DNA of 64,000 bases from contig JAGFJJ010000069.1 in assembly GCA_024102815.1 (NCBI GenBank), positions 202,950-266,949 of the forward strand, in the 5' to 3' direction. Shown piece after piece: positions 6,426 through 64,000 of the stretch. Source of the DNA: Phycisphaerae bacterium. GTDB taxonomy: Bacteria > Planctomycetota > Phycisphaerae > UBA1845. Made by a program: the position numbers and the translations under genes. Under the pieces are notes generated by a model that was given only the letters and a program-made list of their open reading frames with translations, did no database searches and was not told the origin of the DNA. Every line of letters begins with the position of its first letter. Positions within the stretch are counted from its first letter, which is position 1.

Positions 6426-8306
6426 ATGGATCAGGCCGTGACATGCCGTTTGACGGAAGAAGAGCTTTGGAGCGGGCTTGATCGGAACGCGCCGGAGATT
6501 CTCGAGCACGTTGAAAACTGCCCAACCTGCCAGGAACGTGCCGGATCGTTGCGCGCCACGATTGCCGCAGTTGCGTCTGCATCCGAGCCCGAGGTATGTC
6601 CGATTCCGCAGCGCATCGGCCCGTACCTGATCCAGCGCCGACTTGGTCTCGGCGGAATGGGCATTGTCTATGAGGGCGAGCAGGAGAACCCTCGCCGGCT
6701 TGTCGCCGTCAAGGTCGTACGCGGAGGCCACTATGTCGACGACTATCGCGTTCGACTCTTCCAGCGCGAAGTGGAGACGCTTGCGAGGCTCAAGCATCCG
6801 GCCATCGCGGCGATTTACGAGGCAGGTCGGACGGCAGACGGCCAGCACTACTTTGCGATGGAACTCGTCCGGGGGATGCGGCTCAACGACTACGTCCTGG
6901 ATCGCCACGTGCCGCTGCGGCAGCGGCTCGAGTTGTTCATGAAGATCTGCGACGCGATCAACTACGCCCACCAGCGCGGGGTGATTCACCGCGACATCAA
7001 GCCCAGCAACATTCTCGTGGATGCAGAAGGTAATCCGAAGATTCTTGACTTCGGTCTGGCCCGGATCACGGACTCGGAAATGGGCGCGACCACCACCGGA
7101 TCACTCGTCGGCCGGATCATGGGCACCCTGCCCTACATGAGCCCGGAAGAAGCCCGGGGAAATCCCGACGAGATCGACGTCCGCGGTGACGTTTACTCGC
7201 TCGGCGTCATTCTCTACGAGATGCTCACTGGGAGCCTGCCGTACACTGTCAGCCGGCAGGCCATTCCCGAGGCCATTCGCGTCATCTGCGAGGAAGTGCC
7301 ACGGCGTCCCAGCCAGTTCGACCGCAGTCTGCGCGGTGATCTGGAGACGATCATCCTGAAATCGCTGGAGAAGGAGCGGGCCCGCCGCTACCAGAGCCCG
7401 GCCGCGCTCGCCGAGGATGTCGGGCGATTCCTGCGCAACGAGCCGATCCTGGCGCGGCGGACGAGCACGCTTTACCTCACGCGGAAGTTCGTCCAGCGGC
7501 ACAGCATCGTCGTGGCCTTGATCGTCCTGATGATAGCAGCCGGCGCGTTCGTCCAATACATGAGCGAGCGCGTTCAAACGGAAGCCAACAATGCTGCGCT
7601 GGTGAACAGCATGTTCAACGATCTCGCCACGGCCGCCAGTTTTGAGGAGCTGGCACGCGACTCGCGCAGCGTCGGGCAACCGGAAGTACTGGACAGAGCC
7701 GCGGCGCTGGACCGTTCGGCGCGTCTCTACCGTGAGGCTTTGCACACGTACGAGCGAATCGTGGACGAAGGCCCGGAGTCGGTGGCGAACACCGCACGGC
7801 AACGGCTGGGAGGCGTAAAGTTGGGTCTGGGCCAGACGCTCATCGTGCGCGGCGTAACCGCTCAGGCGAACGCTCGCCCGAGCGCCCCGGATTTCGATGA
7901 GGCCAAACGGCTTATCAAGGACGGGCTGGATCTCTACGAAGAGTACAAACTCGCGATCCCGGAAGCCGAGGCCGGCTCTATCATCAGCGCCTTGCGAATG
8001 CTCCGAAGGTTGGAGGAAGCGAACCCGCCAGCCGGTGATATGGCGGAGTTCCGCGACGATGCCGATCTCAATGAAGCCGGGGATTTTGCGGAAGGCCCAC
8101 CGGCGCCGGGCGGCTCGGCTCCCGTGCCGGAAGAGGGCGGCGCTTCCGAGCCAGGCGGTGACGCGGCGGCCAACGACCTGCTGCCTCCGGCCGGAGACCT
8201 CGAACAGGCCTTTAATCTCGGTGAAATCGATGCCATGATACGGCGTGTCGCCTCGCTATCAGGACAAGAGGTGCCCGAACTCCATACCTCGGGCACTTTG
8301 CAGTAA
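6426..8306 (+). CDS. Membrane Ser/Thr protein kinase with anti-sigma-like zinc motif
   Basis: The protein has 626 residues. Residues 28-35 read HVENCPTC (His-x3-Cys-x2-Cys), the zinc-binding pattern of ZAS anti-sigma domains. The kinase domain follows from about residue 66: glycine loop LGLGGMG, Lys in VAVKVV, HRDIKPSN with Asp190, DFG, and SPEE for APE. A single membrane segment lies at about 359-379. Beyond it is a helical, TPR-like region and an acidic Pro/Gly-rich tail. ATG at 6426 is preferred over upstream codons because GGGGAA precedes it and the zinc motif then sits near the N terminus. The ECF sigma gene begins 24 bases downstream. In planctomycetes such kinase/ECF pairs are known; here the kinase probably binds the sigma factor and senses an outside signal. 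The signal is unknown. Confidence 0.9.
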   Translation: MDQAVTCRLTEEELWSGLDRNAPEILEHVENCPTCQERAGSLRATIAAVASASEPEVCPIPQRIGPYLIQRRLGLGGMGIVYEGEQENPRRLVAVKVVRGGHYVDDYRVRLFQREVETLARLKHPAIAAIYEAGRTADGQHYFAMELVRGMRLNDYVLDRHVPLRQRLELFMKICDAINYAHQRGVIHRDIKPSNILVDAEGNPKILDFGLARITDSEMGATTTGSLVGRIMGTLPYMSPEEARGNPDEIDVRGDVYSLGVILYEMLTGSLPYTVSRQAIPEAIRVICEEVPRRPSQFDRSLRGDLETIILKSLEKERARRYQSPAALAEDVGRFLRNEPILARRTSTLYLTRKFVQRHSIVVALIVLMIAAGAFVQYMSERVQTEANNAALVNSMFNDLATAASFEELARDSRSVGQPEVLDRAAALDRSARLYREALHTYERIVDEGPESVANTARQRLGGVKLGLGQTLIVRGVTAQANARPSAPDFDEAKRLIKDGLDLYEEYKLAIPEAEAGSIISALRMLRRLEEANPPAGDMAEFRDDADLNEAGDFAEGPPAPGGSAPVPEEGGASEPGGDAAANDLLPPAGDLEQAFNLGEIDAMIRRVASLSGQEVPELHTSGTLQ

Positions 8307-58594: not shown

Positions 58595-58740
58595 GCCAGC
58601 GCTCCGTTCGGACTGCAATTGCCCTCATAAACGGCAGGCGCGCGAGTCTATCGCCGCGCAGCGCGGCCGTAAAGCCGCGTCACCGAATTGAAACTCCAGT
58701 TCACGCGACAATAACGCACAAAGGGAATGCCCCAACCGAC

Positions 58741-58769
58741 TTGAACACACAATCCCGGCTGCCTATATT
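58741..58769 (+). promoter_or_regulatory. Promoter of the receiver-only regulator
   Basis: TTGAAC (58741-58746), 17 bases, TATATT (58764-58769). The gene begins 45 bases downstream. Confidence 0.7.
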
Positions 58770-58814
58770 CTCACGCAGCGGCTCAATCATTTGAATTGTT
58801 CGGGGTCTAACGTC

Positions 58815-59216
58815 GTGACTGCAACCTTAGCTGGAAAAACCGTCCTCGTGGTCGATGATGACCGCGATTTGGTCAGTGCCTTGTGCGCCATGCTGGAGGA
58901 AACCGGCGCCACGGTTGAAACCGCCGGCGACGGCAATGCGGCGCTTGAGGCGGCATCGCAGCACGATCCGGACCTTGTTCTGCTCGACGCGATGCTGCCC
59001 AAGCGTAGCGGATTTCTCGTGCTCGAGAAGCTGAAGAGCAATGGGAAGAAGCGCGGCCAGCGCCCCTTCGTCATCATGATCACGGGTAACGAGGGCAAGC
59101 GCCACCAGGCGTTCGCCCAGAGCCTTGGGGTGGATGACTACCTCAACAAGCCGTTCCGCATGGACCGGCTCATGCAATGCATCGACCGCCTCTTTGCCGC
59201 CGAGACACCGTCGTAA
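58815..59216 (+). CDS. Receiver-only response regulator
   Basis: The 133-residue protein is a single CheY-like receiver: acidic residues DDD (14-16), phosphorylated Asp58 in LVLLDAMLPKRSGF, Thr in MITGNEGK and Lys in LNKPFRMDRL. There is no output domain. A GTG start follows GGGG; TTG at 58791 is also in frame. It is followed 176 bases later by the TPR protease. It probably relays phosphate or binds a partner protein. No kinase is adjacent except the Ser/Thr kinase at 62512. Confidence 0.9.
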   Translation: MTATLAGKTVLVVDDDRDLVSALCAMLEETGATVETAGDGNAALEAASQHDPDLVLLDAMLPKRSGFLVLEKLKSNGKKRGQRPFVIMITGNEGKRHQAFAQSLGVDDYLNKPFRMDRLMQCIDRLFAAETPS

Positions 59217-59391
59217 TCTCCGCATGATGCGGCACAGCACGTCGAGCCCATGGCGCCTTGAAACGTTGCGCGCCCCCCGCCGCACGATCGCCGCTACAAT
59301 AGGATACCGAGGGCGAGTGCTTGCAGTTCCAGCGGCCCATTGTCCCATGCGCCCGGAGCACAGGCCGCCGGATAAGGCAGGGATGTTCAGC

Positions 59392-62283
59392 ATGAATCGA
59401 CCGGCGAATCCCGTTTCTCTCGCGGCGGCCTGCACGATTCCGTGGGTTCTTTCCTTCGCCGTGTTCGGTTTCGGAGCTGCGACGGCGCAGGAGACAGCGG
59501 AAGAGTCCGTCCCCCCTACCGCCGAGCTTTCTCCCGATGAACTCTACATCAAAGGGGAATACGGGGCTGCGATCGACGCCTATCGCACCCGACTCGGGGA
59601 TGAGCCCGGCGACGTCGCCTCGGCCGTCGGACTGGCGCGTTGCCTGATGCAGACCGGCAACTATGAAGGCGCCTCGTCCGCCTTGGGACAAGTAAGCGGT
59701 GTCGACTCGGCCGACTGGCAGACAACGTCGGCTGAACTTCAGATGGTGCTTGGTCGATACGATGCGGCGTTCAGGCATGCCGAGCGGGCCGTCGAGATTG
59801 CTCCCGAGCGTCCCGAATCGCGGCTGCTCATCGGCCAATGGCATGAGTTGTTCGGCGACTTCCAAAAGGCCATCGAGGCGTACCGCTGGTTTGATCGGCA
59901 GATCGTGGAGCGGGCGGAGCTTCCCCGCGATCCGACGTGGCTCACGGCCACCGCCCAGGGATTCCTGCGGTACAGTATGCTTACGCGAACGAATGTCGCC
60001 GATCGCACCCGCCACGTGCTCCGCGAGATGCTCCAACCGGTGTATTCGACTCTGGATCGGACCTATTGGCCCGCGCGACTTGCAGCGGCCGACTTGCTCC
60101 GGGAACGATATAACAATGACGAGATCGACGGGAGCGTCTCCGATTACCTCGCAGCACTGCGGATCAACGAGCACCTGCCGCAGGCGTATGTCGGCCTTGC
60201 CCGCGTTGCCCTCGACGCGTGGAACTTTGAAGACGCGGAAAAAAACGCACAGGAAGCTCTGAAAATCAACCCTCGTTTTCCTCCCGCATGGCACGTCCAG
60301 GCCGAACGACTGTTGATCGAACGACGCTATGACGAAGCAATCGCCGCAGCGAACGTGGCATTGGAAGTCAACCCGCGAGACCTGATTGCCCTCTCGCTGA
60401 CGGCCGCCGCTCATGCCTGCCGGTTTGACCAGGATGGCGTCGAAGGGTATCGCGAGCAGATCGAGTCCATCGCCCCGCGCTGTCCAGTATTCCATCAGAT
60501 ACTGGGCACGGCGCTGTCGGGAATCCGTCAGTATGCCGACTCGGAGCGCGAATTCCTGCGGGCTATCGAGCTGAATCCCAACGATGCCAACGCACGCAAC
60601 GAACTCGGGCTGATGTACATGCAATGGGGTCGGGAGGACAAGGCCCGGGATGTCCTTGGCACTGCTTTCCAGATCGACCCGTTCAACCAGCGTACGAAAT
60701 TCACGCTGGACTTGCTGGACGATCTGCGCGCTTTTTCCACCGTCGAGACGGACCACGTCATCGTCCGCTACAGGGGGGATGAAGACGGGGTCGTGGCCGA
60801 AGCCATCGCCCGATACATGGACAAGATCTACCCCGAGGTGACGGATGATTTCGAGACGACGCTCGGTGAAAAGACGATCATCGAAATCTTCCCATCGCTG
60901 CGCGAATTCGCCGTGCGGATTACCGGGCAGCCGTGGATCCACACGATCGGTGCCTGCACGGGGCGCATCATCGCCCTTTCCGCGCCACGCCGCGCGGCCG
61001 GCTTGACCGGTCCCTACCACTTTGCCCGCGTGGTCCGTCACGAATTCACGCACACCGTCACGCTTGCTGCGACACACAATCGTATTCCACACTGGTTTAC
61101 CGAAGGACTGGCCGTGCTCCAGGAGGACGCCCCGCGAAGCTACGACTGGATGCGCATGCTCTCTGAGGCCGTCCGTCGTGACGAGTTGTTCGATCTCGTT
61201 TCCGTAAGCTGGGCGTTCGTGAGGCCCCGCCGCCCTACCGACCGCGCCCAAGCCTACGCCCAAAGCGAATGGATGTGCGAGTACATCATCGACCGTTTTG
61301 GCTACGCGAAAATCTTCGACATGCTCGAGGCATTCCGCAACGGCAAGTCCCAGCCCGAGGTTTTTCGAGTCGTGCTGGGCGTTGAACCGGAGGACTTCTC
61401 AAGGGACTTCGCGGTTTGGGCGCGCCAGCAGGCGGTTGCGTGGGGCTTCGACCTCACCCCGCCCGAAGAGCCCGACACGGTCCGTGCCCTGCTGGCCGAG
61501 AACCCGGACAACCCCGATCTGCAAGCTCGCTTGGCCCAGGCCCTTCTGGACGCAGGAGAGATTGGTGAAGCCCTCAAGGTTGCCGACGAGGCGCTCGAAG
61601 AAAACCCCGGCTCGCCGGCCTGTCTAGCCGTCCTTGCTCGGGCAGTGGAAGCGGCCATGCCCCAGATTGAGTCTCCCACGACAAGAGCAAGCCTGGAGAA
61701 AAAGGCGTCGCCTCGCCTTCAAGAGCTGGTGGAGGTCGATCCGGAGAACTGCACGGCCCGAGGGCTGCTCGGCGACAAGGCCTTGCGCGAGGAACAATGG
61801 TCCGTGGCTCGCGAACATTACGAGCGCTTGCAGCGATCCTGCCCGCGTGATCCACGAAGCTGGCGGGGACTTGCGGCCGCATATCTGCACGGAGGCAATG
61901 ACGATCGGGCCCTGCCGCAACTCCTCGAATTGGCCCGGACTGAGGAGCACCAGGCCGATGTCCCGGCTGAGATCGCCCGAATCCAGCGGCGGCACGATCG
62001 GCTTTCCGAAGCCGTCTTCTGGTACGGGGAGGCCCTCTTCATCGATCCCCTGAATGCGGATTTTCGCCACGAGCTTGTGGAGACGTTGATGCGGGCCGAT
62101 CGCACCGAGGATGCTCTTCGAGAGTTGGAAACCCTGATTCGGCTCCATCCGCAGAATGCGGATTATCTGTCGCAGGCCGCCATTGCAGCGAACAAGATCG
62201 GACAGTCGGATCGCGCTCGGGAATTGGCTCAGCGCGCCGTGGCCATCGATCCGGATACTCCAGCCCGTGCCCTGCTCCGATAA
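59392..62283 (+). CDS. Exported TPR protein with an embedded zinc metalloprotease site
   Basis: The 963-residue protein starts with a signal peptide (ending GAATA-QE). TPR repeats fill residues ~40-440 (for example AYVGLARVALDAWNFEDAEKNAQEALKINPRFPP). A gluzincin domain follows at ~450-680 with RHEFTHTVTL (His550, Glu551, His554) and HWFTEGLAV (Glu571), as in peptidase-MA proteins. More TPRs then run to the end (VFWYGEALFIDPLNADFRHELVETLM). AGGGA lies 8 bases before ATG 59392; ATG at 59383 is possible. Probably a periplasmic protein-processing or assembly factor. It is followed 228 bases later by the kinase gene. Confidence 0.87.
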   Translation: MNRPANPVSLAAACTIPWVLSFAVFGFGAATAQETAEESVPPTAELSPDELYIKGEYGAAIDAYRTRLGDEPGDVASAVGLARCLMQTGNYEGASSALGQVSGVDSADWQTTSAELQMVLGRYDAAFRHAERAVEIAPERPESRLLIGQWHELFGDFQKAIEAYRWFDRQIVERAELPRDPTWLTATAQGFLRYSMLTRTNVADRTRHVLREMLQPVYSTLDRTYWPARLAAADLLRERYNNDEIDGSVSDYLAALRINEHLPQAYVGLARVALDAWNFEDAEKNAQEALKINPRFPPAWHVQAERLLIERRYDEAIAAANVALEVNPRDLIALSLTAAAHACRFDQDGVEGYREQIESIAPRCPVFHQILGTALSGIRQYADSEREFLRAIELNPNDANARNELGLMYMQWGREDKARDVLGTAFQIDPFNQRTKFTLDLLDDLRAFSTVETDHVIVRYRGDEDGVVAEAIARYMDKIYPEVTDDFETTLGEKTIIEIFPSLREFAVRITGQPWIHTIGACTGRIIALSAPRRAAGLTGPYHFARVVRHEFTHTVTLAATHNRIPHWFTEGLAVLQEDAPRSYDWMRMLSEAVRRDELFDLVSVSWAFVRPRRPTDRAQAYAQSEWMCEYIIDRFGYAKIFDMLEAFRNGKSQPEVFRVVLGVEPEDFSRDFAVWARQQAVAWGFDLTPPEEPDTVRALLAENPDNPDLQARLAQALLDAGEIGEALKVADEALEENPGSPACLAVLARAVEAAMPQIESPTTRASLEKKASPRLQELVEVDPENCTARGLLGDKALREEQWSVAREHYERLQRSCPRDPRSWRGLAAAYLHGGNDDRALPQLLELARTEEHQADVPAEIARIQRRHDRLSEAVFWYGEALFIDPLNADFRHELVETLMRADRTEDALRELETLIRLHPQNADYLSQAAIAANKIGQSDRARELAQRAVAIDPDTPARALLR

Positions 62284-62511
62284 CCTTCGCGTTACCGCCT
62301 GCGAATTCGATCAAGCGGCGGAGAGACGGCGAGGGTGCCGGCCGCCGCTTCAAGCACATGCGGCGGAATCGTCCGAGAATGCACCACGATTGTTCTCGCC
62401 GGGGCCGGTTGGACGAGACAAGGCGTTTCGCTATGCTCCGCAGCCGATCGATCAACAGCCGGATTGACCGGGGTCGGTGCCCCTCCGGCCGGTAATCGAG
62501 TATGATCGGCC

Positions 62512-63486
62512 GTGGGGAGTCCGATCGGAATCCAGACGGGACAGTTGCAGGTCGTCACCTTGCCCACGGAGATACCAGGCTACCGCATTACCCGCCTCCT
62601 CGGCGTCGGCGCCGCTTCGCGCATCAGCCTCGCCGTGGAGGTGGCCACCAATCGCCAGGTTGCCGTCAAGCACGTACTCCGCGAATCGGCAGAGGACGAT
62701 CCTTTCATTCGCCAGGTGGAGATCGAGCACGAAGTCGCCAGCAAGGCCGACCATGCCTACCTGCGCAAGAGCTACGCCATCCATCGCGTACGCAAGTTGT
62801 TGCAGCTACGCGAGGTGATCCTGATCATGGAGTACGTAGACGGCCTGCCCCTGGATAAGGCTCTGCCCAACCGGCTCAATACGTTTCTGATGCTCTTCCA
62901 GCGTGTGGCGGTGGGATTGGATGCACTCCACGACGCCGGTTACGTGCACAGCGATATCAAGCCGAACAACATCATGATCGGCCGCAAGGGCGTTGTGAAG
63001 ATCATCGATTTTGGGCAATCCTGCCCCATCGGACACCGCAAGTCGCGCATCCAGGGAACGCCGGATTACATCGCACCGGAGCAGGTACAGCGGCTGCCGC
63101 TCGACCGGCGTACAGATGTGTACAATCTTGGCGCAACGATGTATTGGCTGCTGACGGGGGAGAACTATCCGACAAAAATGTCAGGAGTGGGGACCTCGGG
63201 CGGGAGGCAGGTTATCGCGTCGAAGAAGGCGGTTGCCCCCATCGAGCGTAATGATAAGATTCCTTTGGCGCTGTCGCAGTTGGTGATGGAAAGCTGCCGG
63301 GAAAACCCCGGCGAGCGCCCCGCGGACATGAAACAGGTGGCGGCCAGGCTCGCCGTAATCCAGAAGCTCTGGAACAAGCAGCGCGACCAGGCGCGAGCCG
63401 AGCTTCTCGCTTCCCGCGCACCCGTGATCGATCCTCTGGCGCAAACCGTCGAGCAATCGGATGATAGATCGGAAACGAGCGGCTGA
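62512..63486 (+). CDS. Soluble Ser/Thr protein kinase, non-RD type
   Basis: The 324-residue kinase has glycine loop LLGVGAASRISLAV, Lys in VAVKHVL, the catalytic loop HSDIKPNNI (His146, Ser147, Asp148), DFG in IIDFGQS and APEQ. Ser replaces Arg in the usual HRD, so it belongs to the non-RD class and need not depend on activation-loop phosphorylation. It has no membrane helix, and a helical C-terminal tail of ~60 residues. GTG at 62512 is uncertain; a TATGAT just 6 bases upstream would favour a later start or a leaderless mRNA. Its last 26 bases overlap the metallophosphoesterase gene. Confidence 0.9.
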   Translation: MGSPIGIQTGQLQVVTLPTEIPGYRITRLLGVGAASRISLAVEVATNRQVAVKHVLRESAEDDPFIRQVEIEHEVASKADHAYLRKSYAIHRVRKLLQLREVILIMEYVDGLPLDKALPNRLNTFLMLFQRVAVGLDALHDAGYVHSDIKPNNIMIGRKGVVKIIDFGQSCPIGHRKSRIQGTPDYIAPEQVQRLPLDRRTDVYNLGATMYWLLTGENYPTKMSGVGTSGGRQVIASKKAVAPIERNDKIPLALSQLVMESCRENPGERPADMKQVAARLAVIQKLWNKQRDQARAELLASRAPVIDPLAQTVEQSDDRSETSG

Positions 63487-64000
63487 GATCTTCCGTCAGG
63501 CCGCCGACCTCAACCGTAACGACCCCCACCGCCGAGGGTCCCGGCTGGACTTCCCGAACTACGGGCAGTTGGTCATGACCGGTGACCTCCATGGCCACCG
63601 GCGCAATTTTGAGAAACTCCAGCGCTACTGCGATCTTGCCCAGTATGGTGCACGCCACGTCATTCTGCATGAGATCATCCACGAGGACGTGGAAACGCTT
63701 GACGGGCCGGATACATCGCATGAAGTGCTGCTCGAAGCCGCTCGCTGGAAGTGTGAATTCCCGGACCAGGTTCACTTTCTTCAGAGCAACCATGAGCTCG
63801 CCCAGATCCACCGGCACGAGATTACCAAGAATGGGCGGATTGTGACGGTCGGTTTCGAGCGCAGTGTCGCCCAGGCCTACGACGACCCGAATGGCGAGGT
63901 CCTCGAAGCCATCAACGAATTCATCCGCTCGCACCCCTTGGCCGGCCGGACGGCCAATCGCGTCTTCTGCTCCCATTCGCTGCCGGGCCCGCGAGAACTG
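63461..64000 (+). CDS. Metallophosphoesterase, cut off by the window end
   Basis: The open frame from ATG 63461 to the last base gives 180 residues with no stop. Metal-binding motifs of the calcineurin-like family are visible: MTGDLHGHRRNF (Asp42, His44) and SNHEL for the usual GNHE. A further His motif is near the cut end (FCSHSLPG). It is preceded by the kinase gene, with a 26-base overlap, so translation is coupled. A Ser/Thr phosphatase acting on the kinase's products is a natural inference. Confidence 0.85.
   Translation, partial: MIDRKRAAEIFRQAADLNRNDPHRRGSRLDFPNYGQLVMTGDLHGHRRNFEKLQRYCDLAQYGARHVILHEIIHEDVETLDGPDTSHEVLLEAARWKCEFPDQVHFLQSNHELAQIHRHEITKNGRIVTVGFERSVAQAYDDPNGEVLEAINEFIRSHPLAGRTANRVFCSHSLPGPREL

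Follow-up and report, generated by a model that had tools for sequence, protein, structure and literature searches.

A non-RD Hanks-type kinase and a predicted PPP-fold phosphoesterase with an altered metal motif are a conserved gene pair in the Phycisphaerae

Hanks-type protein kinases that lack the HRD arginine and metallophosphoesterases with a predicted PPP fold are near-universal in the sampled genomes of the class Phycisphaerae, where their genes usually lie adjacent on the same strand and, when adjacent, overlap about half of the time. Except for the changes described below, both enzymes appear from their aligned sequences to keep their active-site residues, and the reading that we favour, with modest confidence, is that kinase and phosphoesterase constitute a conserved two-gene switch of the class for reversible phosphorylation. 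What is new is, as judged from sequence, a clade of PPP-fold phosphatases that carries a changed metal motif and is paired with a non-RD Hanks-type kinase across the class; no description of the pair, or of the [HQ]ExxH form of PPP motif II, was found in the open-licence literature, most subscription papers and supplements lying outside that scope.

The locus and its neighbours

The window is the whole 64,000-nucleotide stretch analysed (G000:C69:202950-266949), taken from a genome of 5.09 Mb in 79 contigs. Near its end, on the + strand, the kinase gene (62512-63486; 324 aa; PF00069 at 1.3e-36) closes with a stop codon at 63484-63486, and the phosphoesterase gene opens with an ATG at 63461; the 26 bases that they share (63461-63486) had been pointed out in an earlier note on the window, and translation of the two may be coupled through this overlap. 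The phosphoesterase occupies 63461-64000 of the window and, once the sequence is extended past 64000, is complete at 64315 with 284 aa (L010:6410-7264 on the extended contig).

Ahead of the pair on the same strand stand two local neighbours that lie outside the conserved unit. One is the receiver-only response regulator that the note had recognised (58791-59216; Pfam Response_reg, 4.2e-25), and the other is a TPR protein with a Peptidase_MA_2 domain (59395-62283; 3.7e-13), whose VRHEFTH motif and N-terminus, signal-like by eye, agree with its earlier description as a TPR-protease of the envelope; this protein is probably exported. The "own good promoter" that had been credited to the receiver was not confirmed, as TTGAAC-17-TATATT at 58741-58769 matches the consensus at 9 of 12 positions and does not clearly stand out from shuffled sequence (three rows, two of them a single site, in a scan of 58600-64000, against 1.1 +/- 1.3 in shuffles). 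Elsewhere in the window, a second Hanks-type kinase with a normal HRDIKPSN loop lies in a 658-aa frame at about 6585-7412 on the + strand (G000:C69:209534-210361).

The earlier note had gone on to propose that the four genes form a small signalling module, provided that their order is conserved in related genomes. The part of that order formed by kinase and phosphoesterase is indeed conserved (110 of 153 distinct class loci); the receiver and the TPR-peptidase precede the pair in the source genome and in four of 60 other loci only (L043, L045, L046 and L055), with L174 and L175 among the named loci showing them as well and taken as the same contigs as L045 and L046. That all four genes act as one signalling unit is consistent with the shared strand and order in these five loci, and is nevertheless very improbable, since gaps of 178 and 228 bases separate the receiver, TPR-peptidase and kinase genes and no match to receiver or TPR-peptidase was found beside the pair in the close relatives L044 and L172 (phosphoesterases 72% and 69% identical, respectively). 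As a conserved unit, the four-gene order is rejected, the two upstream genes not having been seen ahead of the pair in the other 56 of the 60 loci. The earlier observation is thus confirmed in part and its interpretation supported in part, and the pair is much more conserved than could be seen from the sequence of the window.

Upstream neighbours of other kinds are met elsewhere: among the 38 proteins scanned, 13 match Pfam Amidase_2 and four are potassium channels. (A fitting same-strand ORF, called mechanically, was present in 42 of 61 loci, the 38 of at least 110 aa were scanned, and where the kinase is not adjacent the neighbour counted is that of the phosphoesterase.) An Amidase_2-match protein with an N-terminal hydrophobic stretch, noted by eye, precedes the kinase at L068:7176-7895, L071:6090-6779, L091:7331-7981 and others, and a TrkA_N/Ion_trans_2 potassium-channel gene does so in four loci of the window's family (L049:6873-7955, L050, L052 and L054). 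These recurring amidase-like and channel genes are not general and offer only a hint. Downstream, no Pfam family was found in more than four of 45 loci (45 of 46 proteins of at least 110 aa scanned, the antisense ORF of the source genome left out), and a glycosyltransferase-like cluster lies just beyond the phosphoesterase in five of 52 loci.

Distribution and adjacency of the pair

Within the class, the phosphoesterase was found in 278 of 298 genomes (223 of the 231 of high quality), with one match per genome except in a single genome with two, and a kinase-family match at 1e-70 in 273 of 298 (219 of 231). Nothing better than 1e-95 was obtained in 17 of the 273 kinase-positive genomes, so some of these may hold only a paralogue, as do five genomes of family f2 (1e-70 to 1e-73). 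In six class genomes, a kinase-family match is present without a phosphoesterase, and five kinase-lacking class genomes (G209, G223, G229, G246 and G253) were assigned by elimination. The two genes also tend to be missing together: five of the eight high-quality class genomes without the phosphoesterase are also without the kinase, against 0.4 expected (Fisher, 8e-6, on tables compiled by hand), a figure weakened by shared ancestry and by assembly gaps that span adjacent genes.

In a sample of the phylum, 79 of 392 genomes encode the phosphoesterase, comprising 40 of the 41 in the class and 39 of the 351 outside it. The kinase was matched at 1e-70 in four of these 351 out-of-class genomes, all four of which also have the phosphoesterase; three of them belong to one family, f57, in which the pair is adjacent.

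The kinase lies directly upstream of the phosphoesterase on the same strand in 48 of 60 loci (L043-L102), 11 of 30 (L103-L132) and 67 of 80 named loci. These sets were chosen differently: the first 60 were picked before adjacency was known, from listed class matches that favour near relatives, the next 30 come mostly from families not yet sampled, and the named loci are the best 80 of 265 GTDB relatives by similarity, mostly Phycisphaerae, Phycisphaerales, Sedimentisphaerales or Planctomycetota. With duplicates removed, as named loci repeat some of the genome-derived ones, the kinase is adjacent in 110 of 153 distinct class loci and non-adjacent in 43 (the distinct-sequence counts used here, 191, 153 and 110, leave out the window's own gene). 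Of 49 adjacent pairs that were measured, among them the source genome's, 25 overlap and no gap exceeds 148 bases, with starts chosen by script. No fusion of kinase and phosphoesterase was found at E 1e-4 in the open frames of 208 loci.

Pairing is not exclusive. When genomes without adjacency were searched, 29 of 34 matched the kinase at 1e-45 (the 34 include three adjacent controls), and five genomes of families f7 and f16 have the phosphoesterase and no kinase match at E 1e-45. Outside the class, the kinase is adjacent in three of 38 phosphoesterase loci, one of these matches being weak (56 bits) and three of the 38 loci having less than 1.2 kb of upstream sequence. This out-of-class range, mostly without an adjacent kinase, is the best evidence against exclusive pairing. 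It also lends some weight, as do families f7 and f16, to a reading in which the substrate of the phosphoesterase is a small molecule, be it a nucleotide, a dinucleoside polyphosphate or a phosphorylated cell-wall precursor, and its link to the kinase is one of co-regulation only, and diadenosine tetraphosphatases do belong to the PPP superfamily according to a 2004 paper (PMC535813). We consider this reading improbable, given that a protein kinase is by far the commonest neighbour (in 38 of 52 loci, the next families reaching 15, 7 and 6; nine of 61 loci, the source genome's included, were dropped where the simple ORF caller missed the phosphoesterase) and that the phosphoesterase matches the protein phosphatases PP1, PP5 and calcineurin over its whole length, in a structure library rich in these.

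A kinase family without the HRD arginine

The window's kinase is a bare kinase domain, predicted with a pLDDT of 90.9 that is low in residues 1-20 and over roughly the last 15; its true start may lie slightly downstream, since homology sets in only near residue 18-20. No sensor or transmembrane domain was found in it, nor any PASTA domain among its Pfam matches, and the PknB/PASTA kinase model NF033483 gave 140.7 bits against a cut-off of 450. Relatives of the kinase that are adjacent to the phosphoesterase measure 281-341 aa (for L046 and L097, the lengths were read across a stop, and both are left out of the kinase alignment, A2, because the script-delimited translation contains it).

In the catalytic loop, HSDIKPNN (62947-62970), serine takes the place of the HRD arginine of the consensus HRDxKxxN, bearing out the earlier remark that this arginine is lacking, and its absence is a trait of the family. 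At the corresponding column of A2 (147), 110 distinct class kinases have Ala (57), Cys (35), Thr (13), Ser (4) or Val (1), and none has Arg. The remaining catalytic elements are all present, namely the VAIK lysine (Lys53, kept in 108 of the 108 with a residue there), the C-helix acidic residue (E/D72), HxD (H146 and D148), the catalytic Asn153, the DFG motif (Asp166 and Gly168, with Phe, Leu or Tyr between them) and the APE glutamate (E190), the HxD, Asn153, Asp166 and Gly168 being kept in all 110; in most members the activation segment ends K-x-R-(I/V)-Q-G-T-P-x-(Y/F)-(I/M)-A-P-E-Q. The arginine is likewise absent from each of the 25 kinases whose motif was found among 27 non-adjacent loci scanned (L158 and L159 yielded no motif). 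Among three adjacent kinases outside the class, Thr is found in two and Arg in the weak one (L271).

The source genome has 36 PF00069 matches, and the 30 scanned comprise 25 HRD kinases, three non-RD kinases and two without a call, so the non-RD loop is a trait of this kinase family and not of the genome. The three non-RD kinases are the pair's own, a paralogue on contig C58 (L011:2914-4020; 39% identical; HAD) and one HGD kinase. As the genome has a single phosphoesterase match, none lies beside the C58 paralogue; two kinase-profile matches are found in 27 of 29 genomes of the window's family.

PD-T4-6 anti-phage kinase models of PADLOC match the pair's kinase at 1.2e-43, as kinase models generally do. 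A role in phage defence is considered unlikely, as these matches look like general kinase similarity and as the near-universal range in the class argues against the patchiness of defence genes.

A PPP fold with a rewired motif II

The phosphoesterase is recognised in Pfam by Metallophos alone, at 24.3 bits against a cut-off of 21.5, and NCBIfam gave no match at 0.01, so standard annotation may hide it. Its AlphaFold model, built on a 61-row alignment, has a mean pLDDT of 95.5 and matches PP1, PP5, PPZ1, PP2A and calcineurin over the whole chain in Foldseek/VIA-align (Z 25.5-26.6, about 26, with 242-252 residues aligned at an rmsd of 2.5-2.8 among the 50 rows shown, for a predicted model), and a profile search with the phosphoesterase reaches PP1 at 9.3e-10. 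The model thus points clearly to a PPP catalytic fold. The PDB rows shown are eukaryotic PPPs, and families that are not listed are not thereby excluded; as these rows reflect the library, which is rich in PP1, PP5 and calcineurin, as well as likeness, no closer kinship with eukaryotic than with bacterial PPPs is claimed. In five out-of-class phosphoesterases (L280, L281, L286, L287 and L288), the N-terminus may be extended by up to about 130-150 residues.

In PPPs, one aspartate of motif II bridges the two metals and another pairs with the catalytic histidine. This motif, GDxxDRG, is replaced in the phosphoesterase family by [HQ]ExxH, which in the window's protein is HEIIH (residues 70-74; codons 63668-63682), and the profile alignment sets LGDYVDRG of PP1 over LHEIIHED. 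Across 191 distinct sequences, Glu71 never varies, position 70 holds His (102) or Gln (89), and position 74 holds His in 190 and Asp in one. At column 75, Gly, Glu, Ala or Ser predominate, and arginine, the residue of PP1 at this column (Arg96), is absent from all sequences except that of L084. On this alignment, Glu71 would stand for the metal-bridging aspartate of PP1, His74 for the aspartate paired with the catalytic histidine and Glu75 for the phosphate-binding arginine. According to Kerk et al. (2021), the motif II arginine of PPPs binds phosphate (PMC8249667).

The rest of the site is strictly kept, as D42, H44, N110, H111, H172 and H233, which provide the other metal ligands and the catalytic histidine, are invariant in 191 of 191. 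Motif I (GDxHG) accordingly retains D42 and H44 throughout, with a final Gly, Asp or Asn, and motif III (GNH(E/D)) retains its NH core, with Gly (78), Ser (75) or Ala (38) at the glycine position and Glu (109), Asp (75), Ala (6) or Gly (1) at the last. R210, found in 190 sequences and replaced by Lys in one, comes after W208, whose partner in the alignment is the PP1 Trp two residues before Asp208; from the alignment to PP1 and the text of PMC8249667, R210 may be the bacterial second arginine of the two-arginine substrate clamp.

The motif could be mistaken for that of an HExxH zinc metallopeptidase, a candidate that was ruled out because, in the PPP-fold model, residues 71-85 are coil following a strand (65-70), with no helix.

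Loss of the motif II arginine and aspartate may leave low or different activity, and an alternative must be weighed in which the phosphoesterase is a pseudophosphatase or phospho-sensor, a regulatory subunit that keeps its metal site, takes up a phosphorylated or phosphate-like ligand and controls the kinase. Every member sampled has a rewired motif II, arginine at the Arg96 column persisting in just one of 191, and a kinase with neither an RD switch nor a detected sensor domain needs some other control. We hold this alternative to be unlikely, since the other metal ligands and the catalytic histidine are invariant and since the change from Asp to Glu is itself found without exception, a pattern that suggests selection for a functional metal site.

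Discussion

In the favoured reading, a reversible switch, the kinase would be catalytically competent without an RD-type activation-loop switch, so that the main determinants of its output would be expression, partner binding and the removal of its products. The phosphoesterase would be a monoesterase of the PPP superfamily with a two-metal site, in which the bridging aspartate of motif II has become Glu and the aspartate that pairs with the catalytic histidine has become His, and it would remove phosphate either from the products of the kinase or from the kinase itself. The "writer/eraser" label that the pair had been given is an interpretation of this kind, in which the phosphoesterase would undo the phosphorylation made by the kinase. 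An output at the cell envelope is faintly hinted at by the envelope and membrane genes upstream in some lineages (amidase-like, potassium channel and TPR-peptidase).

A bolder version, which we put forward tentatively and regard as doubtful, would make the phosphoesterase a class of its own among PPPs, with a rewired bimetal centre and a chemistry or substrate other than ordinary phospho-Ser/Thr, which together with a dedicated, always-on kinase would form a class-wide core switch that has been overlooked, the phosphoesterase being excluded by family models and motif filters. Motif II is named within the signature of all PPPs in the 2004 paper (PMC535813), and, according to Kerk et al. (2021), at least the archaeal bacterial-like set was selected on all six motifs (PMC8249667).

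The significance of the pair lies in several points. In a large clade, motif II has been swapped, yet the PPP fold, the catalytic histidine and five of six metal ligands are retained; an active phosphoesterase would be a test of which parts of PPP chemistry are truly essential, and an inactive one would represent a class-wide regulatory subunit. Across most of the class, moreover, it is paired with a non-RD kinase, which provides a defined and testable candidate for a core phosphorylation switch. Ser/Thr kinases are reported by one survey to be absent or very few in its Phycisphaera clade (PMC11032199), as against 36 PF00069 matches in the window's genome alone.

Comparison with known systems

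Several established systems resemble one or the other half of the pair. PPP phosphatases, including PP1, PP5, calcineurin and bacterial and phage PPPs such as lambda PP, share the whole-chain fold predicted for the phosphoesterase, and PPP-like features in its sequence include GD-x-H, NH(E/D), two late histidine metal ligands and a glycine before the last ligand. Out-of-class phosphoesterases, moreover, have ILDS-type sequences that come close to (I/L/V)D(S/T)G, which PMC535813 gives as a signature of bacterial PPPs. Unlike PPPs, the family has [HQ]ExxH in place of GDxxDRG and lacks the motif II arginine in 190 of 191 sequences, an arginine that Kerk et al. (2021) report to be conserved in every bacterial, archaeal and eukaryotic PPP of their alignment (PMC8249667); the active site of eukaryotic-like PPPs has been called "locked in" in another paper (PMC10214084).

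The non-RD loop likewise has a counterpart, as plant immune receptor kinases have HxD without the arginine (PMC8463890), as does the pair's kinase. Unlike these, the family described here is a minimal bacterial kinase in which the non-RD state is fixed in 110 of 110 distinct class copies.

The arrangement as a whole can be likened to PrkC-PrpC, StkP-PhpP and PknB-PstP, in which, as here, neighbouring genes encode a kinase and a phosphatase that are expected to oppose each other. In those pairs, the phosphatases are of the PP2C/PPM type, and the kinases possess transmembrane and PASTA sensor parts. The pair of the Phycisphaerae differs on both sides, given that the partner has a predicted PPP fold and that the window's kinase has no detected sensor domain.
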